In this document: positions 41,609 through 55,105 of the stretch, one piece after another
How positions within the stretch are numbered: position 1 is the stretch's first letter
Layout of the letters: every line of letters starts with the position of its first letter
NCBI GenBank assembly: GCA_009839325.1
Contig: VXPW01000022.1
Span: 108,618-165,908, forward strand
DNA from: Rhodospirillales bacterium
GTDB lineage: Bacteria > Pseudomonadota > Alphaproteobacteria > TMED109
Reading direction: 5' to 3'
Length of the DNA: 57,291 nucleotides
Program-made: the position numbers and the translations under genes
The notes under the pieces: generated by a model
The model's input: only the letters and a program-made list of their open reading frames with translations
Databases searched by the model: none
What the model was told of the DNA's origin: nothing

Positions 41609-42433
41609 TCAAGCGGCTCCAGGTTGAGCCTCAAGGGCCAACTCCGCAACGCCAAGGGCATCGTTGGCGACCGCGATGCGATCGCCAGGGCCAAGTGGAA
41701 ACGGCTCACCCGGGGATCCCAGCAGCACGACATCGCCCGGCTCAAGTTGTCGACGGCGGACATTGAGATGAGTCGCGACCCAGGACACGATTTCGTACGG
41801 ATGGGCAAGATAGGTCGACGTGCTGGCCACGCCCACATCACGTCTGTCCAGGGTGGTGTGGAGTTCGAGGCCATCTAGTTCCAGCGCGTCGAGGTCAGCA
41901 GTTTCCGGGCCGAGAATGCCCACGGCTGAGCCGGCCAGATCCGCGATACCCAGACCGATCGTGTACGCAGCCAAGCCGGAAATGTTGCGATCGTCGTAAA
42001 TCACAACGGCCAACGCCGCCGCATCGATGGCGGCGGCGGCCGATTCACGGTTCCAGGGACCATCCTCAGCCGCCATCGGCTGCTTGATTCGCAGTGCAAG
42101 TTCGGCAGCCGCCAGCGGGTTATGAGTGTCGCCAACAGGCAATCCGAACGGGGAAGCGTGCAGGTCCCGATCCCAGACAGGCCCGACCACCGGATGCACG
42201 ACGCCGTGTTGCTTCTGCTGGGCATCCGTGGTCAGCGCAATCCGCCAGCCGCCGGGTTCGGTCCCCCGATGGCGCATGCGCCGGACAATCGTATCCTGAA
42301 CGCGATAGGCCTCCGCCATCGTTTGCGGCGTCAGGCTGTCGTCCCATGTCCCGTCAAACGCGGTGCCGTCGGCGCGACCAGCCAGGAGATGTTCCACGAG
42401 TCGGTGGACCCGGACCTCTTCCACCATCCCCAT
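41609..42433 (-). CDS. FAH-family hydratase (2-keto-4-pentenoate hydratase-like)
   Basis: A 274-residue protein of the same family as the gene at 1331 and the one just upstream. GGWRIALTTDAQQKQHG near residue 60 and AAAELALRIKQ near residue 108 correspond to the substrate and metal regions; the acidic motif is AELAL, which lacks one Glu of the usual E-x-E, so metal binding may be altered. It starts 2 bases after the upstream stop (ATG 42433), so the two are coupled. It may be a decarboxylase or hydratase partner; 2-oxo-3-hexenedioate decarboxylase and hydratase are known to pair this way. Confidence 0.82.
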   Translation of the reverse strand: MGMVEEVRVHRLVEHLLAGRADGTAFDGTWDDSLTPQTMAEAYRVQDTIVRRMRHRGTEPGGWRIALTTDAQQKQHGVVHPVVGPVWDRDLHASPFGLPVGDTHNPLAAAELALRIKQPMAAEDGPWNRESAAAAIDAAALAVVIYDDRNISGLAAYTIGLGIADLAGSAVGILGPETADLDALELDGLELHTTLDRRDVGVASTSTYLAHPYEIVSWVATHLNVRRRQLEPGDVVLLGSPGEPFPLGPGDRIAVANDALGVAELALEAQPGAA

Positions 42434-42435
42434 GG

Positions 42436-43236
42436 TTACGTCGTCCCGTCGGGGGCAAGCGAGAATTCAACGGGATCAAGCCCATCAACCTCCCACCGAA
42501 TCGTCTCACCCGGTTGCGGCCAGACGGTCACCGCCAGGCTTCCCGTCATGACAATGTCACCCGCCTGCAGGCTCCGGCCGCGTCTCGCCAGCGAGTTCCC
42601 CAGCAACGCCAGGACGTGCAGCGGACCACCCAGCACGTTCTCGCCGACGCCCTCCCCCGCCGGCTGACCGTCGATCGTCAACCGCCCGGAAACACGCGCG
42701 AGATCGATCGTCGGTGTGTACGCCGATTCGCGCCCGAGCGCGCAGCCGTAGTTCATCGCGTTGTCGGCCACGAGGAGCCCGATGGTCGCGTCCGCGCCCG
42801 CATCCCGATCGTCGACGATCTCGATTCCGGCCATGTACCCGCCGACGGCCTCGGACACCGATTCTGCGGTAAACGGAGCCTGGTCCGGCGTGAGCGACTC
42901 GCGCATGCGGAGGACGATTTCGCCCTCCGCACCCAGATGACGATACTTTCCGGGATCCAGTCGTTTCCCCGATGCATGCACGAGGGGCCCGAAGATGGCG
43001 CCTTCGGCCGGCTCGTCCACACCAAACATTGCCTGCATGGCCGGATTGGTGAGCGCGACCTTCCACCCCGCCACCGGGCCGTCTCCCGCATCAAGGTGAA
43101 GCTGGATCAGTGCATCCTGCACGCGGTACGCCGCATCCCGGTCCGCAGGTACCGCTCTCGATGGGAGTTCGTGCTGGGGTCGAAGCTTGCGCCGGTGTTC
43201 CAGCAGCACCGCCGCCGATTGCTCAGTCGTCCACAT
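42436..43236 (-). CDS. FAH-family hydratase (2-keto-4-pentenoate hydratase-like)
   Basis: A 266-residue family member with GWKVALTNPAMQAMFGVDEP near residue 58, GAEGEIVLRM near residue 105 (acidic metal ligands), IEIVDDRD and GDIVMTGSL near the C-terminus. I take ATG 43236; the codon two triplets earlier is TTG and less likely. It starts 2 bases after the CDGSH stop and ends 2 bases before the next hydratase, so all three are one operon on the minus strand. The substrate is probably a 2-oxo-enoate acid. Confidence 0.86.
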   Translation of the reverse strand: MWTTEQSAAVLLEHRRKLRPQHELPSRAVPADRDAAYRVQDALIQLHLDAGDGPVAGWKVALTNPAMQAMFGVDEPAEGAIFGPLVHASGKRLDPGKYRHLGAEGEIVLRMRESLTPDQAPFTAESVSEAVGGYMAGIEIVDDRDAGADATIGLLVADNAMNYGCALGRESAYTPTIDLARVSGRLTIDGQPAGEGVGENVLGGPLHVLALLGNSLARRGRSLQAGDIVMTGSLAVTVWPQPGETIRWEVDGLDPVEFSLAPDGTT

Positions 43237-43238
43237 GG

Positions 43239-43478
43239 TCAAAGCATGTTGTGGGTGCCATCACAGTACGGCTTGTCGCCGGTCGACTTGCACCCGCACA
43301 GGAACACCGTTTCTGATTTCTCTGCCTTCCATACGACCGGCGAGAACCCTGTGTCCCGGTGAGAGCCATCGCACCAGGGTTGTTTCTCGCTTCTGCCACA
43401 GGCACACCAGGCGTAGTTTTTTCCAGCCTCAACTTCGACGCAGAAGGGCTCCTCTTGGGCAACGATTGGGGAACTCAT
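43239..43478 (-). CDS. Double CDGSH iron-sulfur domain protein
   Basis: A 79-residue protein with two CDGSH-type [2Fe-2S] sites, each three Cys and one His: CACGRSEKQPWCDGSH and CGCKSTGDKPYCDGTH. Bacterial tandem CDGSH proteins are small cytoplasmic redox or cluster-transfer proteins. ATG 43478 has aggagg 7 bases upstream, better than the ATG at 43484. It is the first gene of the operon with the two FAH hydratases, which is an unusual partner set. Confidence 0.92.
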   Translation of the reverse strand: MSSPIVAQEEPFCVEVEAGKNYAWCACGRSEKQPWCDGSHRDTGFSPVVWKAEKSETVFLCGCKSTGDKPYCDGTHNML

Positions 43479-43792
43479 TCGCAATCCTCCTCGTCAAGCC
43501 AGTGTACTTGGCCGACCACCGTCCGCAACGCTGGAGTACTGTCGTCCGCCGACAGCAAGCACGATTGAAATCACGGAATCTATGTGGCTTCCTGCTTGCG
43601 TGGATTCGAAGCCAAGTGTGCGCAGGACGTACACGTCGCATCGGTAGATCGAGCATCGGGCGGGTCGGAACACGAACCACCGCTCTGCTTGCAGGCCCGG
43701 CGCGGCCGTCAGGAAACAGGCTTGCCGGAGCGACTCGCTCCTTGACGTCAACACGCAAATTAGGGGTTGGACAGGTCATGTAGTCTGCCGGA
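43479..43792. other. Divergent intergenic region, CDGSH operon / His-rich peptide
   Basis: About 310 bases that must carry promoters in both directions. No Zur-like or other known operator was recognised in it. Frames here are Arg/Ser-rich and unlike real proteins. Confidence 0.4.
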
Positions 43793-44107
43793 ATGGCTCG
43801 CTACGCTGGTCGCAGAACCACGTCTCTGACCCGAAGCTGCCTCTGCGTCCCGCTCGCTGTCGGTCTACTGGTTGCGCAAGTCGCCGCCAGCCACCATGCG
43901 GTGGAGTTCGGCCACGACGAGCATTCGCACGATCAGCAAGGGCTATGCGAGTTCCCGCTTGTTTCTGCAGAGATTTCCCTTCTCCCTATCACCCTGCAGG
44001 ATCGCGCACCCAGCTTTCTCGAGCCGTCAACCACGACCACCTCGCTTCCGGTCGCGACTCGCACACTGCGAGCAAACCGCATCCGCGCTCCTCCGATGTC
44101 CGCCTGA
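43793..44107 (+). CDS. Small secreted His-containing protein of the zinc locus
   Basis: A 104-residue protein. A hydrophobic signal (CVPLAVGLLVAQVAASHH) is followed by a His/Asp-rich segment (HHAVEFGHDEHSHDQQGLCEF) and ends in RANRIRAPPMSA. This plan (signal, His motif, Cys, C-terminal R-x-PP) resembles the small DUF2946-like proteins found beside metal transport genes. I cannot confirm the family. It lies upstream of the Zur-like site, so its own control is uncertain. A role in periplasmic metal binding is inferred. Confidence 0.55.
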   Translation: MARYAGRRTTSLTRSCLCVPLAVGLLVAQVAASHHAVEFGHDEHSHDQQGLCEFPLVSAEISLLPITLQDRAPSFLEPSTTTTSLPVATRTLRANRIRAPPMSA

Positions 44108-44236
44108 CCTGAGACCTGCGAGCCGGGCAACTGGTGCTCGCACCGACCGCGAGCACGATACGTGCGGCGCAGGTGAGTGTGATTCGGCGCGCGGCCGGCA
44201 AGGGTTACCTTCTGGCACTCTTGGTCGGGCAATGGT

Positions 44237-44261
44237 TGTTACTTTATAACAAATGTTATAA
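44237..44261 (+). promoter_or_regulatory. Zur-like operator of the zinc-acquisition operon
   Basis: An AT-rich island in GC-rich DNA. TGTTACT-T-TATAACA (44237-44251) matches the Zur palindrome TGTTATA-N-TATAACA at 12 of 14 arm positions. A third half-site, TGTTATA, follows at 44254-44260, so TTATAAC-N4-GTTATAA (44244-44261) is also a perfect inverted repeat. It lies about 115 bases before the outer-membrane protein gene. Repression by zinc-loaded Zur is the expected control; no zur gene is in the window. Confidence 0.75.
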
Positions 44262-44373
44262 GGTTTCGTTCTCTCCGGGAGTCCGCCCGGAATCCTTTCA
44301 AACAGCAAATCTGTCGTGCGGGATGAGGAAACCAATTCCCAACTCTCGCTCGGATCAGGAAAAGGCTTTCGAC

Positions 44374-45987
44374 ATGCGCACCATCGTCCAGGCTCTGTGG
44401 GCAGCAGGCCTCTCGTCCATCATGGTCTGCATCGCGCTTCAGGCGCACGCCCAGGATTCGGCACCCACGGCAGAGGAACTCGCTGCCGAGATCCAGGCCA
44501 TCAAACAGGAATACGAGGCCCGCATCCAGGCCCTGGAAGGGCAGCTCGAGGCCATGACGACTACCCCGGCCCAGCCCGCACAGCCAGCGGTCTCCCCGAT
44601 GGGGCGCAAGGCATTCACCACGGACAATGTCTTCAATCCCGCGATCGGCATGGTCCTGGATCCCCGGTACTCGACCCAATCTGAGGCCTTCGCGCCTGCC
44701 GGATTCCAGGTGGGACACGGGGCCGAACGTCCTGTCGAAGGTTTCTCGCTGGGCCACCCCGAATTTACGCTTACCGGGAATGTGGACGACAAGTTCTTCG
44801 GGGCCGCGACGATCGCGTTGGAAGTCCCTCCGGGCGAGTCGGTCGAACTGGAGGTGGAGGAGTTCTACATCCAGACGTTGCCGGGCGCCGGTCTGCCGGA
44901 CGGGGCACGGATCAAGGCCGGGCGGGCGCTGTGGACCTTCGGGTACCTCAACGAGATCCATTTGCACGCCGACGATTTCTCCGACCGTCCCATCCCCTAC
45001 CGGGCCTTCCTTGACCACTCGTTCAACGACGACGGCCTTGAGCTCTCCTACGTCCTGCCGACCGACATCTACGCCGAGGTCGGCGGCGGGTTGTTCCGCG
45101 GCGACGACGTTCCCTTCGCAGGTTCGGCGAACGGCCGCAATGCCTGGTCTGTCTTTGGGCGGATGGGCGGTGACTTCGGCCGCAACGGTGCGTGGCGCAT
45201 CGGCGCCTACATGATGGCAGGCGAAGCTCACAACCGCGCCGGCGGCCACGACCACGCGCATGGCGGGGAGGAAGACGAGCACGGCCACGAAGGCGAACAC
45301 GCGCACGAAGACGAGCACGGCCACGAAGACGAACACGCGCACGAAGACGAACACGCGGACGAAGACCACAATGGCGAAATGCATGACGATGATCACGACG
45401 ACCACGCTGAAGACGAAGGTCTCGCGGCATGGGCAAATATCGACGCGTTCACCGACGGCGAGTTCTCGGGCGACGCAACCATGTATGCCGTCGACGCCCG
45501 TGTGACCTGGGCGCCCACGGGCAATCCCCGCGAACAGGAGGTGATCCTTCAGGGCGAGGTGTTCTGGCGGGTAGAGGACGGCTACTACAGCCTTCCTGGC
45601 GAGTACGACACCCCGACATTCACCGATTCGACCGCCATGGGGTTCTATGTGCAGGGCATCTACAAACTCAATCGCAACTTCAGGATTGGTGCCCGCTACG
45701 CGCGGCTGACCCCGCCGGACATCCCTGAGTGCGTGCTGCACGACGGCCATTGCGATGCTGTCACTCCTGCACTCGACGACTCCGTTGGCTACGCGGTCAT
45801 GGCGGACTGGACCAACAGCGAGTTCAGCCGCATTCGGCTGCAGTACAACCGCGAGGAAGTCCAGAATTTCGTCCATGGCAGGTTGGACGCACACGGCGAA
45901 GATGCCCCAGTATTCGTCGAGCAGGATGACCAGATCCTGCTGCAGTACATCATGAGCCTCGGCGCCCACGCGGCCCACACGTTCTGA
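44374..45987 (+). CDS. Zinc-locus outer-membrane barrel protein with His-rich loop
   Basis: A 537-residue exported protein. Signal peptide about 1-26 (ALQAHAQ), a short coiled coil (AEEIQAIKQEYEARIQALEGQLEAM-like, about residues 31-60), then alternating beta-strand sequence to the C-terminus, ending in Phe as outer-membrane barrels do. A loop at about 290-349 has some sixteen His mixed with Asp/Glu and built from 6-residue repeats, suited to capturing zinc. It is not a TonB receptor: no plug domain or TonB box is seen. ATG 44374 follows aggaaaagg; ATG 44323 is in frame. ZnuA-like gene follows after 11 bases. Zinc passage is inferred from context. Confidence 0.8.
   Translation: MRTIVQALWAAGLSSIMVCIALQAHAQDSAPTAEELAAEIQAIKQEYEARIQALEGQLEAMTTTPAQPAQPAVSPMGRKAFTTDNVFNPAIGMVLDPRYSTQSEAFAPAGFQVGHGAERPVEGFSLGHPEFTLTGNVDDKFFGAATIALEVPPGESVELEVEEFYIQTLPGAGLPDGARIKAGRALWTFGYLNEIHLHADDFSDRPIPYRAFLDHSFNDDGLELSYVLPTDIYAEVGGGLFRGDDVPFAGSANGRNAWSVFGRMGGDFGRNGAWRIGAYMMAGEAHNRAGGHDHAHGGEEDEHGHEGEHAHEDEHGHEDEHAHEDEHADEDHNGEMHDDDHDDHAEDEGLAAWANIDAFTDGEFSGDATMYAVDARVTWAPTGNPREQEVILQGEVFWRVEDGYYSLPGEYDTPTFTDSTAMGFYVQGIYKLNRNFRIGARYARLTPPDIPECVLHDGHCDAVTPALDDSVGYAVMADWTNSEFSRIRLQYNREEVQNFVHGRLDAHGEDAPVFVEQDDQILLQYIMSLGAHAAHTF
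45268..45369 (+). repeat. 18-bp tandem repeats coding HEDEHA units
   Basis: Four clear 18-bp units at 45286-45303, 45304-45321, 45322-45339 and 45340-45357, with a degenerate unit before (45268-45285) and a partial one after. They encode variants of HEDEHA/G. Units three and four are identical at the DNA level, so recent expansion is likely and copy number may vary. Confidence 0.9.
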
Positions 45988-45998
45988 CGGAGGGCGCG

Positions 45999-46919
45999 AT
46001 GTATCGTTTCCTGACACTCGCCCTGGCGGCGGGCTGCCTGGCGGCAGCGGCAGCCCTGTCCGCGCTCCCGGCCTCGGCGGAGGTGCGGGTATTCGCCTGC
46101 GAACCCGAGTGGGCTTCCCTTGCCCAGGAAGTGGGCGGCAGTGACGTCACGGCGTACTCGGCGACGCACGGCGGGCAGGATCCCCATCACATCCGCGCCC
46201 GGCCGAGCCTGATCGCCCAGATCCGCCGGGCGGACCTCCTGTTCTGTTCCGGGGCCGAGCTTGAGGTCGGTTGGCTCCCGGTCCTGATGCAACGCGGGGC
46301 ACGGCTCGGCATCCAGCCGGGACAGCCAGGCCACCTGATGGCGGCCGAACACGTGGAGGTCCTGGAACGTCCCGCGGTCATCGACCGCAGCTTGGGCGAC
46401 GTCCACGCAAGCGGCAATCCGCATGTCCACGCTGACCCCCACAACATCAGAGTGCTTGCCAGCGAGGTCGCCGCACGCCTGGGCGCAATCGATCCGGATC
46501 GCGCCGATGCCTACCAGTCCCGGCTGGCGGACTTCCATGCGCGCTGGGACAGCGCAATGGCGCAGTGGGAGCCCCGTGCGGCAGCGCTCCGTGGCACCCC
46601 GCTGATCGTTCAGCACGCCTTCTGGGCCTATCTCTTCAACTGGCTGGGCCTGGAAAAGGTCACCTCCATGGAGCGCGTGCCCGGCATTCCGCCGTCCGCT
46701 CCGTACCTTCAGGAAGTGCTCGAACATTCCCGTTCGACGGAAGTCAAGGCCATCGTTCGGGCCAACTACGAGCCCACCGACGCCGCGGAATGGCTGTCGG
46801 AGCGAAGTGGCCTCCCGCTCGTGGAACTGCCCTCCACGGTGGGTTCCTTCCCCGAGGTCACGGACCTCTTTTCGTACTTCTCCGAGATCCTGACCCGGCT
46901 GGAGGCCATTCCCGACTAG
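45999..46919 (+). CDS. Zinc ABC transporter binding protein, ZnuA-like (copy 1)
   Basis: A 306-residue periplasmic cluster A-I metal-binding protein. Signal peptide about 1-27 (LPASAEV). Likely metal histidines: in ATHGGQDPHHIRARPS (H57, H63/H64), GNPHVHADPHN near residue 142, and QHAFWAYLFNWLG near residue 207. The His/Asp-rich loop of classical ZnuA is absent; that function seems to be carried by the outer-membrane protein. It starts 11 bases after the barrel gene. Copy 2 lies at 47714. Confidence 0.88.
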   Translation: MYRFLTLALAAGCLAAAAALSALPASAEVRVFACEPEWASLAQEVGGSDVTAYSATHGGQDPHHIRARPSLIAQIRRADLLFCSGAELEVGWLPVLMQRGARLGIQPGQPGHLMAAEHVEVLERPAVIDRSLGDVHASGNPHVHADPHNIRVLASEVAARLGAIDPDRADAYQSRLADFHARWDSAMAQWEPRAAALRGTPLIVQHAFWAYLFNWLGLEKVTSMERVPGIPPSAPYLQEVLEHSRSTEVKAIVRANYEPTDAAEWLSERSGLPLVELPSTVGSFPEVTDLFSYFSEILTRLEAIPD

Positions 46920-46920
46920 T

Positions 46921-47700
46921 CTGCTTCGGTACCGGGGCTTCGGCGACAAACCCGATAGCGACACCAGACTCGAGTTTGCGTCCGCGTTTCCGATCGATCC
47001 GTGCGCGGAAGCCGGAGTGGGGCTTTTCCGGGACGACGTTCCCTTCCCCACTTCCGGCAACGTTGTTGGCGCGTTCTCGGCAACGTCGGCCTTGCGGGTG
47101 AATTCAGCCGCAACCCGTCGGTTCCGATCAGTGCGTATGGATCGAGCGGATCACTGCCGGGCGCAGGAGTGGCGACGACCACGGGATGACCATGCCGATG
47201 ACGACGAGCATGAGCATCATGATCGGCTCGCAGAAGGCCCATTTTCCGCAGACACGCCCTCCCACGACTTTAATGTCCACGGCGCATTTGCGCCCACCGG
47301 CATTCTCCGCAAACAGGAGCTCACCCTGCCGGGTGACGTTTTCTGACGAATCGGAAACGACTACTGCGCAGTCGAAGAAGAACTGGACATACACGAAGTC
47401 GAGGGCGCAGGGGCCGGCTGACACGTTGCCACACACCTACGCGTTCGACCACGCTCGGCGGATTGGTGCCCGTCGCACACGCCTTAGTCCGGTCAGTTCG
47501 GCCGCCGACGCGATGCGCGACGAGTACAAGGTCGAACACTATCCTTCCACCATCACGCCGACGGCCGAGCGGGCCAACAGTGGCTTCGGACGGACGCCGT
47601 TGAAGCTCGGCCGGGGATCCCTGACCCACGTTGAGACTGACGCCCAAGTGTACCTGCAGCCCATCATGAGTTTGGGAACGTATGCGGCCACGCGTAACAA
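46921..47700 (+). pseudogene. Decayed second copy of the zinc-locus outer-membrane protein
   Basis: Translation right after the copy 1 stop resumes similarity to the barrel protein from its YRAF segment onward. Frame 1: YRGFGDKPDSDTRLEF and GLFRDDVPF (intact copy: GLFRGDDVPF). Frame 3: GEFSRNPSVPISAY (intact: GDFGRNGAWRIGAY). Frame 1 again: a His-rich remnant, FAPTGILRKQELTLPGDVF, then TGA at 47344 exactly where the intact copy has Trp (GEVFWRV). Frame 2: RIGARRTRLSP (intact: RIGARYARLTP) and VYLQPIMSLGTYAA (intact: LLQYIMSLGAHAA). The first ~210 codons are missing and there are several frameshifts, so it cannot make the protein. It ends 13 bases before znuA copy 2, like the intact gene before copy 1. 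Confidence 0.85.
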
Positions 47701-47713
47701 TTGGGGCCGAGCA

Positions 47714-48643
47714 ATGTTGCTGAAACCACTTGCGTGGGCGATCTGGGGCGCCCCGTTGGCCGTGCTGGTGATGGTCGAACCATCCCCGGCCGTCGCCGAG
47801 GTGCGGATTTTTGCCTGCGAACCCGAGTGGGCGGCCCTGGCCTCGGAAATCGGGGGCGATGCGGTCAGCGTCTACGCGGGAACGCATGGCCGTCAAGACC
47901 CACACTACATCCGGATGCGCCCCAGTCTCATCGAACACGTGCGCCGGGCGGATGTGCTGTTCTGCACCGGGGCAGGCCTGGAGGACGGTTGGCTCCCGGT
48001 TCTCCTGCAGCTTGGCGCGAGTGCGTCCCTCCAGCATGGTCAGCCCGGACACCTGATCGCCAGCGAGCATGTCCGATTGCTGGATCCTCCGAGCGTCGTC
48101 GACCGCAGACCCAGGCACGTGCACGCGGAGGGGAATCCGCACGTGCAACTCCTGCCGGAGAACATTGGCTACATGGCCTCGGAGCTGGCCCGCCGGCTGG
48201 TCGTGATCGATCCGGAGAACACCGAGACCTATCGCCAGCAGCTGTCGGCATTCCAGGAGCGTTGGCGGGGCGCCTCGGCAGGATGGATGGAACGGTCGTC
48301 GCGCCTGGCGGGCATGCCCGTTGTCGCGTACCACGAATCGTGGGCCTACCTGTACGAGTGGACCGGTATCAGGCAGGCCGCAGCGATCGAACGCCTCCCC
48401 GGTGTCCCGCCGACCGTCAGCCATCTGCAAGAGGTCCTGGAACTGGCCCGGAGTGCCGGAGCCCGGGCTATTCTCCGCGCCCCGTATGAACCGACCAAGG
48501 GGATGGAGTGGCTTTCCGACAGGGCTGGAATCCCGATTGTCGAGCTACCTTTCACCGTCGGCGGCTTGGAGGGGGTCGATAACCTGTTTGACCTTTTTGA
48601 CGTCACGCTCGCGCTGTTGGAAGAAGTACATGATCAATACTGA
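47714..48643 (+). CDS. Zinc ABC transporter binding protein, ZnuA-like (copy 2)
   Basis: A 309-residue paralogue of copy 1, similar along its whole length (FACEPEWA, THGRQDPHYIRMRPSLIEHVRRAD, GWLPVL, GQPGHLIASEHV, GNPHVQLLPENI, YHESWAYLYEW). Signal peptide about 1-33 (PAVAEV). Copy 2 has Tyr for His in DPHY and Gln for His in PHVQ, so its metal site may differ. The frame runs open to 47186, but that part is the pseudogene read in one frame; ATG 47714 gives the signal peptide. It overlaps the permease start by 14 bases. Confidence 0.87.
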   Translation: MLLKPLAWAIWGAPLAVLVMVEPSPAVAEVRIFACEPEWAALASEIGGDAVSVYAGTHGRQDPHYIRMRPSLIEHVRRADVLFCTGAGLEDGWLPVLLQLGASASLQHGQPGHLIASEHVRLLDPPSVVDRRPRHVHAEGNPHVQLLPENIGYMASELARRLVVIDPENTETYRQQLSAFQERWRGASAGWMERSSRLAGMPVVAYHESWAYLYEWTGIRQAAAIERLPGVPPTVSHLQEVLELARSAGARAILRAPYEPTKGMEWLSDRAGIPIVELPFTVGGLEGVDNLFDLFDVTLALLEEVHDQY

Positions 48644-49418
48644 GATTCTTGAGATCATCATGCCGGCGTTCGTGACCGGTCTCCTGTGTACGGCGCTGCA
48701 CGTGCCGCTTGGCATTGAGGTCCTGAAGCGGGGAATCGTCTTTATCGATCTTGCCACCGCACAGGTGGCCGGCGTCGCGATCGTCGCGCTGAACGTCTGG
48801 GTAATGGAGCCGTCGTGGGCCGGAATCCAGGTCGCGGCATTCGGATCGGCGGCGACGTTTGCGTTTTTTTTCCGGTGGGTGGAAAAGATCATGCCCGCCG
48901 AGCAGGAGGCGGTCATCGGCAGCTGCTTCATCGTTGCGGCGTCGGTGACACTGCTGCTGCTCGCCAACAGCCCGCATGGAGGGGAAGAGCTCGAGCACGT
49001 GCTCTCAGGCCAGATCCTGTTCACGTCATGGTCAGATTTGGCCGCATTCCTGCCGGTGTATCTGCTGGTCGCGGGACTGTGGCTCGGGTACCCGAATCTC
49101 CGGAGCGGACAAGGGTTCTTTCTTCTGTTTGCACTTGCGATCACCGCATCCGTTCAATTGTTGGGCGTGTACGTCGTCTTCGCAAGCTTGATTCTGCCGG
49201 CGCTGGCCGGGCGACGGGCGGATGGTTCGTACAATTTGTTGCGTGCCTTGTTGAGCGGCGGCGTGGCGGTCATTGCAGGAATCCTGGCATCGGCTGCCGC
49301 CGATCTTCCAGCCGGGCCGTTCCTCGTACTCTGTTTTGCCGTGGCCGCCATCGTGGTCCGCGTCGTGTCCTACTGGACGTCCCGCTCGACTTCACAGCCA
49401 GATCCACGCCAAGCGTGA
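48630..49418 (+). CDS. Zinc ABC transporter permease, ZnuB-like (ABC-3 family)
   Basis: A 262-residue inner-membrane protein with about eight hydrophobic segments. LCTALHVPLGIEVLKRGIVFIDLATAQVAGVAI and SVQLLGVYVVFASLILPALAG match ABC-3 metal permeases. ATG 48630 overlaps the copy 2 gene by 14 bases. An ATPase (ZnuC) normally accompanies this protein, but no ATP-binding gene is in the locus. It must use an ATPase from elsewhere or be a different kind of transporter. Confidence 0.88.
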   Translation: MINTEILEIIMPAFVTGLLCTALHVPLGIEVLKRGIVFIDLATAQVAGVAIVALNVWVMEPSWAGIQVAAFGSAATFAFFFRWVEKIMPAEQEAVIGSCFIVAASVTLLLLANSPHGGEELEHVLSGQILFTSWSDLAAFLPVYLLVAGLWLGYPNLRSGQGFFLLFALAITASVQLLGVYVVFASLILPALAGRRADGSYNLLRALLSGGVAVIAGILASAAADLPAGPFLVLCFAVAAIVVRVVSYWTSRSTSQPDPRQA

Positions 49419-49640: not shown

Positions 49641-50465
49641 ATGAACGAAGCGGGCGGACACGGCGTGGATAACAGCTCCCGTTTCGTCGCACTGGCAACC
49701 TTACGGCAACGAATTACGGCGCTGGAAGGACCGCCGAAGAAGCACACATCTGTCGAGCCGGATTCCGCCTGGCTTCCGGGAATCAAGACGCTGGATGACG
49801 CACTCCCCCCTAACGGGCTGACGCTGGGCGCCTTGCACGAAGCATCCGGTGCCACCGGCACCGATGGAGCGTCGGCTGCAGCCTTCCTCGTTGCCCTCCT
49901 GCATCGACTGTCGCACCGGGCCGGACGCGACACCATCCTGGTCTGTGAAAGCGATGCAAGTCGATCCGGCCGTCTACATGGCTGGGGGTGGCGCGACCTC
50001 GGGGGGGATCCGGACGCACTGCTGATTGTCCGAACCCGGCATGACAAGGAGGTCCTATGGGCCATGGAGGAAGGATTGCGCTCCGGCGCCCTGGCAGCAG
50101 TTTTCGCCGAAATCAGGAGCATTGGTTTCACCATGACCCGACGGCTGTCGCTGGCCGCTCAGGAAAGCATGACGCCCGCCTTGCTGCTACGCGACGATGG
50201 ACTCGCTCCAACCAGTGCAGCGGCCACGCGATGGCTGGTCAGGACTCTCCCCTCCGCTCACGACTCGCTCGACATCCGCGCTCCAGGAGCGCCCCGGTGG
50301 CGCCTCGGACTCATCCGCTGCCGGGGCGGTCGCCCAGCCCGATGCAATGTGGAGTGGCGCCATGAAGCGGGTGCTTTCCGTGTGGCTGCCGCGATGGGCC
50401 ATCGACCGGCGACGGCTACCCACCAGCGGAACACAGTCCACCCCGCAGTCCTTCGAGCGAGTTAA
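49641..50465 (+). CDS. imuA: Mutasome accessory protein ImuA
   Basis: A 274-residue RecA-like protein of the ImuA (SulA-related) family, needed with ImuB and DnaE2 for damage-induced mutagenesis. N-terminal helix ATLRQRITALEG, a degenerate P-loop region (GALHEASGATGTDGASAAAFLVALLHRL), DTILVCESDASRSGRLHGWG and a C-terminal domain (PRWRLGLIRCRGGRPARCNVEWRHEAGAFRV). It starts 14 bases after the LexA box. The end overlaps imuB by 104 bases in a different frame, more than usual. Confidence 0.88.
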   Translation: MNEAGGHGVDNSSRFVALATLRQRITALEGPPKKHTSVEPDSAWLPGIKTLDDALPPNGLTLGALHEASGATGTDGASAAAFLVALLHRLSHRAGRDTILVCESDASRSGRLHGWGWRDLGGDPDALLIVRTRHDKEVLWAMEEGLRSGALAAVFAEIRSIGFTMTRRLSLAAQESMTPALLLRDDGLAPTSAAATRWLVRTLPSAHDSLDIRAPGAPRWRLGLIRCRGGRPARCNVEWRHEAGAFRVAAAMGHRPATATHQRNTVHPAVLRAS

Positions 50466-51903
50466 CTTCCCTCCACTGGTACTGGCGGCCCCCGGTCGAC
50501 GCGGAATGGTGCTGACGGCCGTCGATGAGCGGGCCGAACACACCGGTCTGATGCCGGGCATGCGTCTGGTGGATGCCCGTGCCCTGGTGGCCGGGATCAC
50601 CGTCGAAAAGGCGGATCCCGTCGCTGACCAGCAAGCCCTCGTGCAGTTGGGACTGTGGTGCGGCCGTTTCACGCCCCGCGTCGCATGCGACGGCGCCGAC
50701 GGTCTCTTGCTCGATGTCACGGGTTGCTCCCATCTGTTCGGTGGCGAGCAGGCAATGATGCAGACGGTTTCAAAACGGCTGACGAGGCTCGGGCTGGAGA
50801 CGCGCCTGGGGCTCGCCGATACCCCCGGCGCCGCCAGAGCCTTGGCTCGCTTTGCCCCTGAGCACCAACGCATCGTCAAACCCGGCAAGGTCCGGGCAGC
50901 CTTGAAGACCCTGCCCGTTGAGGCCCTCGGAGTGACGCGCAGCGACACCCTGACCCTGCGTCACCTGGGGCTAAGCACCATCGGCGCGATCACTCGATTG
51001 CCACGCGCAGCCCTGGAGCGCAGATTCCCACCCTGCAGCGCCGAAAACGGGCTGCTTCAGCGCCTCGACCAGGTGCTCGGCAACCGGAACGAACATCTCT
51101 CCCTCCTGGCCCCGCCACCGGTTTATCGGTGGCGTCTGGACTTCGCGGAACCGGTCATGCACCGAGAGGGATTGGAAACGGCGCTGGCCAACATGATGGC
51201 CCGGCTCACGGTTGCGCTGAAACGCGGCCAGCATGGCGCAAGACGGCTTGCGCTCTGGTGTTTCGGAATCGACGGAAGCATGGCCGAACGCACCGTGGCG
51301 GCCTCCCGGCCGACGCGGGACACGGATCATCTCCAGCGCCTGTTCGCAGGCGAACTCGAAACCGTGGATCCCGGGTTCGGGATCGATGCCATCGCGCTTC
51401 ACGCAACCTTGGTCGAACCGCTGGAAGCCAGGCAGCCTTTGCTCGACGGCAGCCAGCAGGACAACCTTGACCCGCTGATCGACCGGCTCGTGGCGCGCCT
51501 GGGAGCCGGTGCCGTCCTCCGGCCGGTTTTCACTGAACGCCGTTTCCCGGAACAAGCCGAGCGTTTTGCCGGACCCGGAGAAGCCGGGACATCCCCATTG
51601 CCGTACCCGGACCTCCCCCCGCGCCCGTTCCGTCTGTTTGAATGGCCGGAGCCCCTGCAGGTCATAGCCTTGGTTCCGGACGGCCCGCCGCGCTTGTTCA
51701 TCTGGCGGCGGGTGCGCCGTCGCATCACCCGAGCCGCGGGCCCTGAACGCATCGCGCCGGAATGGTGGACACCGGACACCGACCAGGCGACACGCGACTA
51801 CTGGCGTGTCGAAGACACGGACGGGCATCGCTACTGGCTCTATCGCACCGGCCTCCGCGGCAACGGTGCCCCCCGCTGGTTTCTCCACGGCCTGTACGGC
51901 TGA
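50362..51903 (+). CDS. imuB: Y-family polymerase-like mutasome protein ImuB
   Basis: A 513-residue member of the ImuB group, which has a Y-family polymerase fold but lacks the catalytic acidic residues and acts as a hub joining ImuA, DnaE2 and the beta clamp. N-terminus KRVLSVWLPRWAIDRRR, then LLLDVTGCSHLFGGEQAM, LGLADTPGAARALARFAP, and a long C-terminal tail. ATG 50362 has ggag 8 bases upstream; ATG 50347 is possible. The gene starts inside imuA. Confidence 0.92.
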   Translation: MKRVLSVWLPRWAIDRRRLPTSGTQSTPQSFERVNFPPLVLAAPGRRGMVLTAVDERAEHTGLMPGMRLVDARALVAGITVEKADPVADQQALVQLGLWCGRFTPRVACDGADGLLLDVTGCSHLFGGEQAMMQTVSKRLTRLGLETRLGLADTPGAARALARFAPEHQRIVKPGKVRAALKTLPVEALGVTRSDTLTLRHLGLSTIGAITRLPRAALERRFPPCSAENGLLQRLDQVLGNRNEHLSLLAPPPVYRWRLDFAEPVMHREGLETALANMMARLTVALKRGQHGARRLALWCFGIDGSMAERTVAASRPTRDTDHLQRLFAGELETVDPGFGIDAIALHATLVEPLEARQPLLDGSQQDNLDPLIDRLVARLGAGAVLRPVFTERRFPEQAERFAGPGEAGTSPLPYPDLPPRPFRLFEWPEPLQVIALVPDGPPRLFIWRRVRRRITRAAGPERIAPEWWTPDTDQATRDYWRVEDTDGHRYWLYRTGLRGNGAPRWFLHGLYG

Positions 51904-51910
51904 GGCGCCC

Positions 51911-54900
51911 TTGTACGCCGAACTGCAGACCACCACCAACTTCAGCTTCCTCCGGGGCGGTTCCCATCCCGGGGAACTGGTAGAACGGGCGGCGGCGCTG
52001 GGACTGACGGCAATCGGAATCACCGACCGAAACTCGCTGGCGGGCATCGTGCGGGCACATGTGGCCGCCAAGGACGCAGGGATCCGCCTGCTGGCCGGCG
52101 CCCGTCTTGATCTTGAAGACGGTCTCTCTCTGCTGTGCTACCCGCGCAACCGTGAAGCGTATGGCCGCCTTTGTCGCTTGCTGACGTTGGGGCAGCGGCG
52201 TGCGGGCAAGGGCAGGTGCCAACTCCATCTGGAGGATCTCTGGGTCCATGCCGAGGGCCAGGTCCTGATTGTCGTGCCCCCTCCCGGCCCGGACATGGGA
52301 ACCTTCGCAACAAGGCTCGCGGCGTTACGCAGCCGTCTCCCGGGGCCGCTCTATCTGGCGACTCACATGCTCTACCGGGGTGACGACCGCGCCCGTATCG
52401 CCCAGCTGGCCAGGCTCGCTGACCGCCACGAAATGCCGCTGGTCGCCACCAACGACGTGCTCTACCACCTCCCCGAACGTCGCCCGCTGCAGGACGTCCT
52501 CACGGCCATTCGCGAACATACGACCGTCCAGAGCGCCGGCTACCAGCTGAATGCCAATGCAGAACGCCACCTGAAGAGCCCGGCCGAGATGCTGCGTCTC
52601 TTTGCCGGATACGAAGCATTGACCGACCGTACCGCCGAAATTGTCGAATCGATCGGTTTCCGTCTCGACGAGCTGACGTACGAATATCCCGATGAACCCG
52701 TGCCCGCAGGCAGAACCGCGCAGCAGCATCTGGAGGAACTGACCTGGGAAGGAGCTGCCCGACACTTTCCCGACGGGCTTCCCGAGATGCTCCGCAGCAC
52801 GCTGGAACACGAACTTGGACTCATCGCACAGCTCGGCTATGCCTGTTATTTCCTCACGGTTTACGACATCGTCCAGTTCGCCAGGCAGCAGGACATCCTG
52901 TGCCAGGGACGTGGTTCGGCAGCCAATTCGGCGGTCTGCTACTGCCTGGGCATCACCGCCGTCGATCCGGCCGAGATCGACCTGCTGTTCGAGCGCTTCA
53001 TCTCTCCTGAGCGCAGAGAGCCGCCCGACATCGACATCGACTTCGAGCACGAACGGCGTGAGGAGGTCATCCAGTACATCTACGAGCGGTACGGTCGAGA
53101 CCGGGCGGCGTTGGCCGCGACCGTAATTACCTACCGTGCCCGTAGCGCTGCCCGTGAGGTCGGCAAGGCCATGGGCCTGTCCGAAGATACGGCGGCGGCC
53201 CTTGCCGATTCCCTCAGGACCGAGGGAGGATTCTCCGAGGAACGTGTCCGTGATGCCGGGTTTGACCCTGCCGATCCGGCTCTTCGCATGACCCTTGCCC
53301 TGGCTTCCCAGCTGATGGGGTTTCCCCGCCACCTTTCCCAGCATGTCGGCGGGTTTGTGCTGAGCCGCAGCCCCCTGTGCGACATGATCCCGATCGGCAA
53401 TGCGGCCATGAAGGATCGTACGTTCGTCGAATGGGACAAGGACGATCTGGAGGCTCTCGGATTCATGAAGGTCGATGTGCTCGCTCTCGGCATGTTGACA
53501 TGCATTCGCAAGGCGTTCGCATTGCTGAAACGCCACCGGGGCATCGACCTGGAACTCTCCGACGTACCGCGCAAGGACCAGGCGGTTTACGACATGCTTT
53601 GCCGCGCTGACTCCATCGGCGTGTTCCAGATCGAAAGCCGCGCACAAATGAACATGCTGCCGCGTCTCAAGCCGCGCTGCTTCTACGATCTGGTGATCGA
53701 AGTTGCGATCGTGCGCCCCGGTCCGATCCAGGGCGACATGGTGCATCCCTATCTGCGCCGGCGCGACGGCCTGGAGTTGGTGATCTACCCGAAGCCCAGT
53801 CCGGACCACGGCCCGCCGGACGAGTTGCAAAGAGTGCTGCAGAAAACCCTGGGCGTGCCGTTGTTCCAGGAGCAGGCGATGCGCATCGCCATCACGGCGG
53901 CCAGGTTCAGTCCCGACGAAGCCAATGCCTTGCGTCATTCGATGGCCACCTTCCGGAAGCGCGGAACCTTGCCCCTGCTCCGCGAGAAGATGGTCGGCCG
54001 CATGATCAGGCGCGGTTACGACCCCGAACTCGCGGCGCGCTGCTTTCGCCAGATTGAAGGCTTCGGCGAGTACGGGTTCCCGGAGTCCCATGCCGCCAGC
54101 TTCGCGCACCTGGCCTACGTGTCGTCGTGGCTCAAGTGCCACCATCCCGAAGTGTTCGCCTGCGCCTTGCTGAACGCGCAGCCCATGGGCTTCTACGCGC
54201 CGGCGCAAATCGTGCGCGACGCCCGTGAGCACGGCGTCGAGGTGCGGTCCGTCGACGTCAACATGAGCCATTGGGACAATTCGCTGGAACCGACGTCCGG
54301 CGAGCATGGGGCACTCAGGCTCGGCATGCGCCAGATCGGAGGGCTTCGCGAAGACGACGCCAATCTCGTGGTAGAGAAACGTGACCAGGGGTACGCCAGT
54401 GTCGCCGATGTACGCCGACGCACCGGCATTCCAGACGCCGCTCTCAAGTGCCTCGCCGAGGCGGACGCCTTCCGTTCCATCGGTTCCGACCGGCGCGAGG
54501 CACTATGGGAGGTCCTTGAGGACACGCCCGAGATGCCCCTGTTCGACACCCATTCCGAATCGAACAGCACCACAAGAATCCCGCTTCCGCCGTTGCGGCT
54601 GAGCGAGCATGTCCTTGCCGACTACCGGTCTCTGCGCCTGTCCTTGAAGGCACACCCCGTCGCATTCCTGCGCAAGAGACTTGCGCGCTCGGGAACCCTG
54701 CCGGCTGAAAGAATCAACCAAGGTGCCCGCGACGGTCAGTCAGCTGTCGCCGCCGGCGTGGTCCTGGCGAGACAGCGCCCCGGCAGCGCCAAGGGGGTCA
54801 TCTTCATGACCCTGGAAGACGAAACCGGTGTCGTGAACGTGGTGGTTTGGCCCAGAACAACGGAAGCGTTCCGCCGGGTCGTGATGACCAGCCGACTGGC

Positions 54901-55105
54901 CTGGGTCAGGGGACGGATTCAGCGCACCGGAAAAATCGTCCACCTGGTCGCCGATCGCCTCGAGGACATCACGGGCTGGCTTTCCCAGCTGTCCGAAAAC
55001 GGCGATGCCGTCCACCAGAAGCACGGGCCCTACGCCGCCTCGCCCCCGCTTGCGCGCCATCCGAGGAACCAGCGTGTCATCCCGCGGTCGAGGGACTTCC
55101 ATTGA
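51911..55105 (+). CDS. dnaE2: Error-prone DNA polymerase III alpha subunit DnaE2
   Basis: A 1064-residue C-family polymerase for translesion synthesis. PHP domain about 1-270 (YAELQTTTNFSFLRGGSHP, GITDRNSLAGIVRAH), catalytic core with CQGRGSAANSAVCY and PDIDIDFEHERR (metal-binding Asp near 373-377), then GYASV-type helix-hairpin region, and an OB fold at about 950-1040 (VIFMTLEDETGVVNVVVWP). The start is TTG 51911, 7 bases after the imuB stop; the in-frame ATG 51806 lies inside imuB and adds non-family residues. Third gene of the LexA-controlled cassette. Confidence 0.95.
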   Translation: MYAELQTTTNFSFLRGGSHPGELVERAAALGLTAIGITDRNSLAGIVRAHVAAKDAGIRLLAGARLDLEDGLSLLCYPRNREAYGRLCRLLTLGQRRAGKGRCQLHLEDLWVHAEGQVLIVVPPPGPDMGTFATRLAALRSRLPGPLYLATHMLYRGDDRARIAQLARLADRHEMPLVATNDVLYHLPERRPLQDVLTAIREHTTVQSAGYQLNANAERHLKSPAEMLRLFAGYEALTDRTAEIVESIGFRLDELTYEYPDEPVPAGRTAQQHLEELTWEGAARHFPDGLPEMLRSTLEHELGLIAQLGYACYFLTVYDIVQFARQQDILCQGRGSAANSAVCYCLGITAVDPAEIDLLFERFISPERREPPDIDIDFEHERREEVIQYIYERYGRDRAALAATVITYRARSAAREVGKAMGLSEDTAAALADSLRTEGGFSEERVRDAGFDPADPALRMTLALASQLMGFPRHLSQHVGGFVLSRSPLCDMIPIGNAAMKDRTFVEWDKDDLEALGFMKVDVLALGMLTCIRKAFALLKRHRGIDLELSDVPRKDQAVYDMLCRADSIGVFQIESRAQMNMLPRLKPRCFYDLVIEVAIVRPGPIQGDMVHPYLRRRDGLELVIYPKPSPDHGPPDELQRVLQKTLGVPLFQEQAMRIAITAARFSPDEANALRHSMATFRKRGTLPLLREKMVGRMIRRGYDPELAARCFRQIEGFGEYGFPESHAASFAHLAYVSSWLKCHHPEVFACALLNAQPMGFYAPAQIVRDAREHGVEVRSVDVNMSHWDNSLEPTSGEHGALRLGMRQIGGLREDDANLVVEKRDQGYASVADVRRRTGIPDAALKCLAEADAFRSIGSDRREALWEVLEDTPEMPLFDTHSESNSTTRIPLPPLRLSEHVLADYRSLRLSLKAHPVAFLRKRLARSGTLPAERINQGARDGQSAVAAGVVLARQRPGSAKGVIFMTLEDETGVVNVVVWPRTTEAFRRVVMTSRLAWVRGRIQRTGKIVHLVADRLEDITGWLSQLSENGDAVHQKHGPYAASPPLARHPRNQRVIPRSRDFH

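Follow-up and report, generated by a model that had tools for sequence, protein, structure and literature searches.

A gene set at positions 43793-49418 of a 57,291-nucleotide stretch of Rhodospirillales DNA (hereafter the window) may specify a zinc-uptake cassette that is repressed by Zur and contains an ABC-type permease independent of any ABC ATPase. We put the probability of this reading at roughly 0.57. The parts of the cassette are known families by sequence or fold; the permease fails two features that define its family, the ATPase-coupling segment and the Asp-His-Asp (D-H-D) metal triad, and the set as a whole fails a third, the ATPase itself.

Results

Organization of the locus

Open reading frames and Pfam matches agreed with the gene positions proposed in a first-pass annotation of this segment. 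All genes lie on the plus strand, in the order small His/Cys protein, porin, ZnuA-like protein 1, decayed porin copy, ZnuA-like protein 2 and permease. The lack of an ABC ATPase gene in the 5.6 kb was borne out on re-inspection, and Rfam matched only a tRNA. The same annotation had raised the prospect of a lone znuC elsewhere in the source genome (2.73 Mb in 111 contigs, 92% complete). A znuC gene is indeed present, on contig C67; it is not alone, being part of a full canonical znuABC made up of znuCB and a divergent znuA. Three further metal-type permeases adjoin ATPases in this genome.

The permease lacks the ATPase-coupling segment

The permease (262 aa, 48630-49418) matched the Pfam ABC-3 family (PF00950) with 55.8 bits against a cut-off of 20.1, and it is predicted to fold like a type II (ZnuB/PsaC) ABC importer. 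A break at about residues 154-159 marks the deletion of the cytoplasmic ATPase-coupling segment, a feature that had gone unnoticed in the first-pass annotation. The coupling region was 45 residues long in all 30 canonical permeases, 26-28 residues in 81 of 81 cassette permeases (motif-picked loci plus the window) and 25-28 residues in all 33 measurable permeases from 34 profile-picked loci, the remaining one (L238) being a fragment. Profile alignment likewise showed the segment to be missing, and the one-residue difference between comparisons arises because the alignment anchors differ. The canonical permeases had been collected by means of a profile built from four such proteins of the source genome; a limit on length was also applied, which biases the sample towards full-length proteins, and 13 of the 30 came from an ATPase search. 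A wrong-strand decoy (can_L002+) was left out of the segment counts. By homology, rather than from a solved complex, the deleted segment would be the coupling helix on which an ABC ATPase docks.

The metal triad of the canonical channel is Asp-His-Asp, according to the text available from PMC8487065. In the window permease D40, Q45 and E93 take the place of these residues. The first Asp sits one position earlier in cassette permeases, and the changes of His to Gln and of the second Asp to Glu were found in 81 of 81. Three membrane-embedded acidic residues, D40, E93 and D225, are likewise invariant in 81 of 81, although conservation of the motifs is partly built in because the 80 loci were picked with two short family motifs. 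Pairwise dN/dS values within the genus were 0.15-0.25, showing by computation that the permease is under purifying selection and ruling out a degenerate or spurious gene. The best family-level matches were to AztB and ZnuB permeases, the AztB model being matched by 62 of 62 proteins; the window protein falls far below both NCBIfam cut-offs (44.3 bits against 280 for AztB and 27.5 against 284 for ZnuB).

An ATPase-less gene set in many genomes

Among 97 genomes, its own included, the permease was found in all seven genomes of the genus and, at 47-53% identity, in ten more. In each of those ten a porin and a binding protein adjoin it. A scan of GTDB species genomes yielded at least 557 tblastn-confirmed stretches, and the best 80 of these were fetched. 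The binding protein gene precedes the permease in 79 of these best 80 loci and is itself preceded by the porin gene in 77, counting as present porins broken by a contig end or a run of N. Inside the cassette no ABC ATPase was found in any of the 80, bar an antisense frame over the L074 permease. Together with eleven ORFs elsewhere in the fetched DNA, this frame brings to 12 of 80 the loci with an ABC-ATPase-like ORF outside or antisense to the set; the one most similar to the ZnuC of the source genome lies about 5 kb away and matches it at 36% over 148 residues.

When 200 genomes, sampled evenly across the phylum, were searched with the profile, 30 of them, among these the window's own, matched with E 1e-30 or better. 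One family accounts for 24 of the matching genomes, and counted by genus the matches came to 11 of 110. The 29 other genomes contributed 34 loci, of which 33 have a binding protein, 26 a detected porin and none an ATPase inside the set. Seven of the 34 pair binding protein and permease with no detected porin, which may have escaped the profile. One set (L206) is convergent to a complete canonical operon, and another (L052) also has a canonical system nearby. No conserved flanking gene family was seen: no Pfam family occurred in more than 3 of the 97 neighbours scanned from 129 collected. Thus the porin-ZnuA-ZnuB set without znuC, which the first-pass annotation had singled out as a possible system in its own right, is conserved far beyond the source genome, and neither the best 80 of at least 557 loci nor the 34 profile-picked loci have znuC regularly beside it. 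Cultured carriers include Shewanella hanedai, Shewanella glacialipiscicola, Limnobacter humi, Limnobacter litoralis and Sulfurovum mangrovi.

Other zinc transporters and ATPases in the same genomes

The ABC-3 model was run on 47 cassette genomes, comprising all 17 carriers of the porin set from the 97-genome search and the genomes behind 30 of the 80 fetched loci. A canonical permease is present in 23 of the 47, including the source genome. None was seen in the other 24 among the matches listed, which were read by eye from the strong end with matches under about 36 bits mostly left out; many cassette genomes are incomplete metagenome-assembled genomes, and four of these 24 are 70-74% complete. 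The genomes of both Shewanella and both Limnobacter species belong with those in which no canonical ABC-3 permease was seen. Permease matches of 69 and 49 bits in Limnobacter were rejected as canonical since they fall into a second subfamily that likewise lacks an ATPase; the 5 kb inspected there contained no porin. An extra match in S. glacialipiscicola was judged by eye to be of the FecCD/BtuCD type.

The best score per genome on the ZnuC model was 89-131 bits in the 24 genomes, against 196-314 bits in four with canonical systems. The 131-bit ATPase (genome G118) was discarded as a candidate ZnuC: it adjoins a FecCD-type permease and is by eye of the FecCD/BtuCD type. An ATPase on contig C7 of the source genome, which does stand beside a canonical permease, scored only 97 bits on the same model. 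When a metal-type ATPase of the source genome served as query, matches reached 91-98 bits in three genomes with canonical permeases and at most 94 bits in the 24, one of which gave none. Scores thus failed to separate diverged metal ATPases from ordinary ABC ATPases, and the 24 could therefore still contain an unrecognized lone partner of the diverged kind.

No ZIP transporter over the cut-off was found in 16 of the 24 genomes, one of these having a sub-threshold match, and no NRAMP transporter in nine of the sixteen. Neither a canonical ABC-3 permease, nor an ATPase scoring within the range of the ZnuC controls, nor a ZIP over the cut-off, nor an NRAMP was thus seen in these nine genomes; one (G085) is 99% complete, another (G010) 96%, and three are 71-74% complete. 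The Limnobacter genomes also hold a ZIP transporter and S. hanedai an NRAMP transporter.

Putative Zur operator and ZnuA-like binding proteins

A Zur-type operator is predicted at positions 44237-44261, with no strand assigned. It consists of TGTTACTTTATAACA at 44237-44251, matching the palindrome at 12 of 14 positions, and of a further half-site; together these form TTATAACAAATGTTATAA at 44244-44261. In the 2.73-Mb genome, sequences within two mismatches of TGTTATANTATAACA occur at six places (seven matches), 44237-44251 among them, while the control pattern, the palindrome read backwards, has a single match. The operator noted in the first-pass annotation is thus more than a chance resemblance. 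Four of the other five places adjoin FUR-family and ZnuA/ABC-3 genes, and the remaining one, on contig C94, is located about 0.6 kb past a TonB-receptor barrel gene. The C94 site also precedes by about 370 bases a frame that by eye resembles the start of a TonB receptor, although its scanned part matched no Pfam family. The window operator has the same shape as Caulobacter Zur operators, as far as these are described in the text available from PMC4176598. In a set of 65 upstream regions, each of 500 bases and one of them the window's, nine reach 12/14, against 0.18 expected, and four reach 14/14; a strong operator was not seen in the other 56, nor at the canonical znu genes of C67. The cassette is probably under Zur control. 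A FUR-family gene stands directly before the porin gene in one relative, and the source genome has nine FUR-family matches.

The two ZnuA-like periplasmic proteins of the window (protein 1, 306 aa, 45999-46919; protein 2, 309 aa, 47714-48643, its end overlapping the permease start) matched Pfam ZnuA (PF01297) with 134.8 and 120.7 bits, respectively, against a cut-off of 29. The ligand histidines H63, H142 and H206 are kept in 81 of 81 such proteins (these two and 79 relatives), and pairwise dN/dS in the genus was 0.16-0.28. The cassette presumably handles zinc, in the inward direction.

Both binding proteins are present as the first-pass annotation had it. The pair is not part of the design, the second being specific to the genus: the main locus carries a single porin-ZnuA-ZnuB set in two of the seven genus genomes, and protein 2 is closest to the single copy of these relatives. 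One of the single-set genomes (L051) also holds broken extra copies. The 51% identity between the two window proteins, together with the decayed porin copy described below, points to an old duplication in the genus.

The porin, its decayed copy and the small protein

The outer-membrane protein (537 aa, 44374-45987) had been described as a non-TonB barrel with a His/Asp/Glu loop. The first part of this description stands: the predicted model is a porin with a signal-like N-terminal helix, a coiled coil at residues 33-62 and a barrel of about 16 strands, nearest to OprO/OprP and not to a TonB receptor. It lacks the plug and 22-stranded barrel of TonB-dependent receptors of the ZnuD type, and the TonB barrel model gave a weak match to one of 38 members of the porin family (best 0.0089). 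The loop does exist in the window porin, at residues about 285-345, and residues 292-345 are modelled with low confidence; it is not constant in the family, a His-rich loop (at least 7 His in 60 residues) being found in 10 of 38 porins. The "metal sponge" loop is consequently no longer regarded as what defines the system. Four histidines, H196, H198, H532 and H535, are on the other hand invariant among the 38 aligned porins, and they set the cassette proteins apart from the 16-stranded OprP/OprO and DcaP-type porins, with which identity is 12-14%. The window porin has no Pfam match, and a search by sequence for solved relatives returned nothing significant. The Porin_O_P profile matched one of the 38, and the NCBIfam model of the siderophore porin LbtU, which serves TonB-independent uptake, matched two (best 2.4e-7), the window porin not among them. 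Pairwise dN/dS for the porin in the genus was 0.19-0.38.

The interval between the two ZnuA-like genes is not the empty spacer for which it had been taken. It contains a decayed second porin gene copy (46920-47700, plus strand), recognized by a tblastn match to the porin (E 1.8e-13 over 46903-47388, with gaps and a stop) and a 59-nt blastn match at 78%, the part beyond 47388 being assigned by eye. A missed ATPase in this gap was ruled out, the gap being a porin relic. Porin fragments occupy the equivalent position in two genus relatives (L048 and L049).

The small His/Cys protein (104 aa by ORF translation, 43793-44107) has a signal-like N-terminus and no match in Pfam or NCBIfam. It follows the pattern HHAxE..EHxH..C with R[AG]PP at the C-terminus, and its gene recurs upstream of the porin: a loose filter found candidates in 40 of 65 relatives with enough upstream DNA, and the pattern was recognized by eye in 33. 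Alignment with 33 relatives showed C52 and P101 to be invariant and H35, R98 and P100 to be kept in at least 90%. Matches to DUF2946 below the cut-off were seen in three of nine scanned copies from relatives. Pairwise dN/dS in the genus was 0.31-0.49; in the comparison set one relative carries the gene with a stop, and in another no copy was found.

Discussion

The cassette shares its permease family (ABC-3) and binding-protein family (cluster A-I) with metal ABC importers of the ZnuABC/PsaBCA type. It differs from them in having no ATPase gene, no coupling segment and D-Q-E in place of D-H-D, and its operon adds a porin and the small His/Cys protein. The loss of the segment and the change of triad lead us to propose that the permease works without an ABC ATPase. 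Under zinc starvation, Zur would be lifted from its operator. Zinc would then cross the outer membrane through the dedicated, TonB-independent porin of about 16 strands with its invariant histidines and be bound by the ZnuA-type periplasmic protein, which would dock on the permease. The latter, presumably a homodimer, would have kept the importer fold and lost its grip on the ATPase, acting as a binding-protein-dependent secondary transporter or a gated channel. D40, E93 and D225 would fit the metal path. We infer an energy source other than an ABC ATPase: the membrane potential or ion coupling may drive uptake down an inward gradient of divalent cations, perhaps with protons, the binding protein serving as gate and selectivity filter. 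Binding-protein-dependent, ATP-independent uptake is known from TRAP and tripartite tricarboxylate transporters. The likeness is in the way of working only, since their membrane subunits are unrelated to that of the cassette, which has the ABC-permease fold.

The first-pass annotation had left a choice between an ATPase shared from another operon and a permease that works differently. The latter is now favoured over the former because the coupling segment is missing from all cassette permeases that were measurable and 24 of 47 genomes show neither a canonical permease nor a control-range ATPase. We thus consider it unlikely that the permease has remained an ABC transporter that borrows an ATPase, whether the ZnuC of a canonical operon or some other, docked through another surface. 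Such sharing is possible in the source genome, with its complete znuABC on C67, and in the 22 others that have a canonical permease; it would suit the type II importer fold, and the scores cannot tell a diverged metal ATPase from an ordinary one. It has to contend with the loss of the segment from every measured cassette permease, with those 24 genomes and with the absence of an ATPase from the cassette in all 80 and 34 loci. With neither ATPase docking nor the canonical histidine retained, and with canonical permeases in 23 of the 47 genomes, the membrane protein could also be one that no longer transports at all. It would then leave transport to other importers and serve periplasmic zinc trafficking or storage as a receptor, sensor or docking site. 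We regard this as improbable given the nine genomes, G085 at 99% completeness among them, with no canonical ABC-3, control-range ATPase, ZIP over the cut-off or NRAMP, and given three acidic residues invariant in 81 of 81 permeases.

The substrate raises a separate question. The same machinery might move another metal or a metal chelate (Mn, Ni, Cu or a metallophore complex): the LbtU model does match two of the 38 porins, a His-only site in the binding protein does not prove zinc, and the nine FUR-family matches in the source genome may respond to various metals. This too seems unlikely in view of operators shaped like the Caulobacter Zur sites in the available description, of their occurrence at ZnuA/ABC-3 loci in the source genome, of the three conserved ligand histidines and of the His-rich loops in part of the porin family. 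The reading that we prefer remains ATPase-independent import of zinc.

A broader proposal, which we hold at just short of evens, is that a whole clade of ABC-importer permeases dropped its ATPase and gave rise to ATP-independent, binding-protein-dependent zinc transporters, most with a dedicated porin, forming a new class of trans-envelope metal uptake. The chance that the cassette proves a new class is about even; no description of it was found in the open-licence PMC literature, subscription papers and preprints falling outside that scope. If the proposal is true, the clade would be an exception to the ATPase requirement that is the rule for ABC importer permeases and would illustrate an evolutionary route from primary pump to secondary transporter. 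Many environmental bacteria would then own a zinc importer misread by annotation. Since no canonical ABC-3 permease was seen in the four cultured Shewanella and Limnobacter genomes, the question is directly testable. The clade would also have been hidden in databases under names of the ABC transporter kind; one database record names the gene "metal ABC transporter permease".

Arrangement of the ATPase-less cassettes and their relatives

A second permease subfamily without an ATPase was found alongside a ZnuA-like protein in Limnobacter and in the genome G041 (L198:1280-2871; L199:1763-3960; L063:7739-10224), with no porin seen near these loci. The coupling segment of its members, presumed to dock the ABC ATPase, spans 34-37 residues (45 in canonical and 25-28 in cassette permeases) and represents an intermediate state. 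The Limnobacter set adjoins a gene that, by eye, resembles acetamidase/formamidase.

In one relative's locus, the ATPase-less cassette adjoins a canonical binding protein-ATPase-permease operon, convergent to it (L206:150-5884). In G005, a relative from the same genus as the window, the binding protein and permease are also present as additional broken copies close to the intact cassette (L051:4747-7638), one of the broken permease copies carrying three in-frame TGA codons.

Regulators and neighbouring genes

Nine FUR-family matches were obtained in the window's own genome. Four of them adjoin genes of the ZnuA or ABC-3 type, where a Zur-type site is also present; one more such site lies near TonB-receptor genes (contigs concerned: C7, C10, C86, C109 and C94). 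In a Pelagibacterales-labelled MAG, a FUR-family regulator gene immediately precedes the porin (L097:4215-4652).

Directly downstream of the putative zinc cassette, the window contains a mutagenesis cassette of imuA-like, imuB-like and dnaE2-like genes (49641-55105). The imuA-like gene matches the ImuA model with 60.7 bits, under the model's cut-off; the other two were named by eye from their sequences. Upstream, on the minus strand, lie a CDGSH iron-sulfur protein gene and two tandem FAA-hydrolase family genes (41609-43484).
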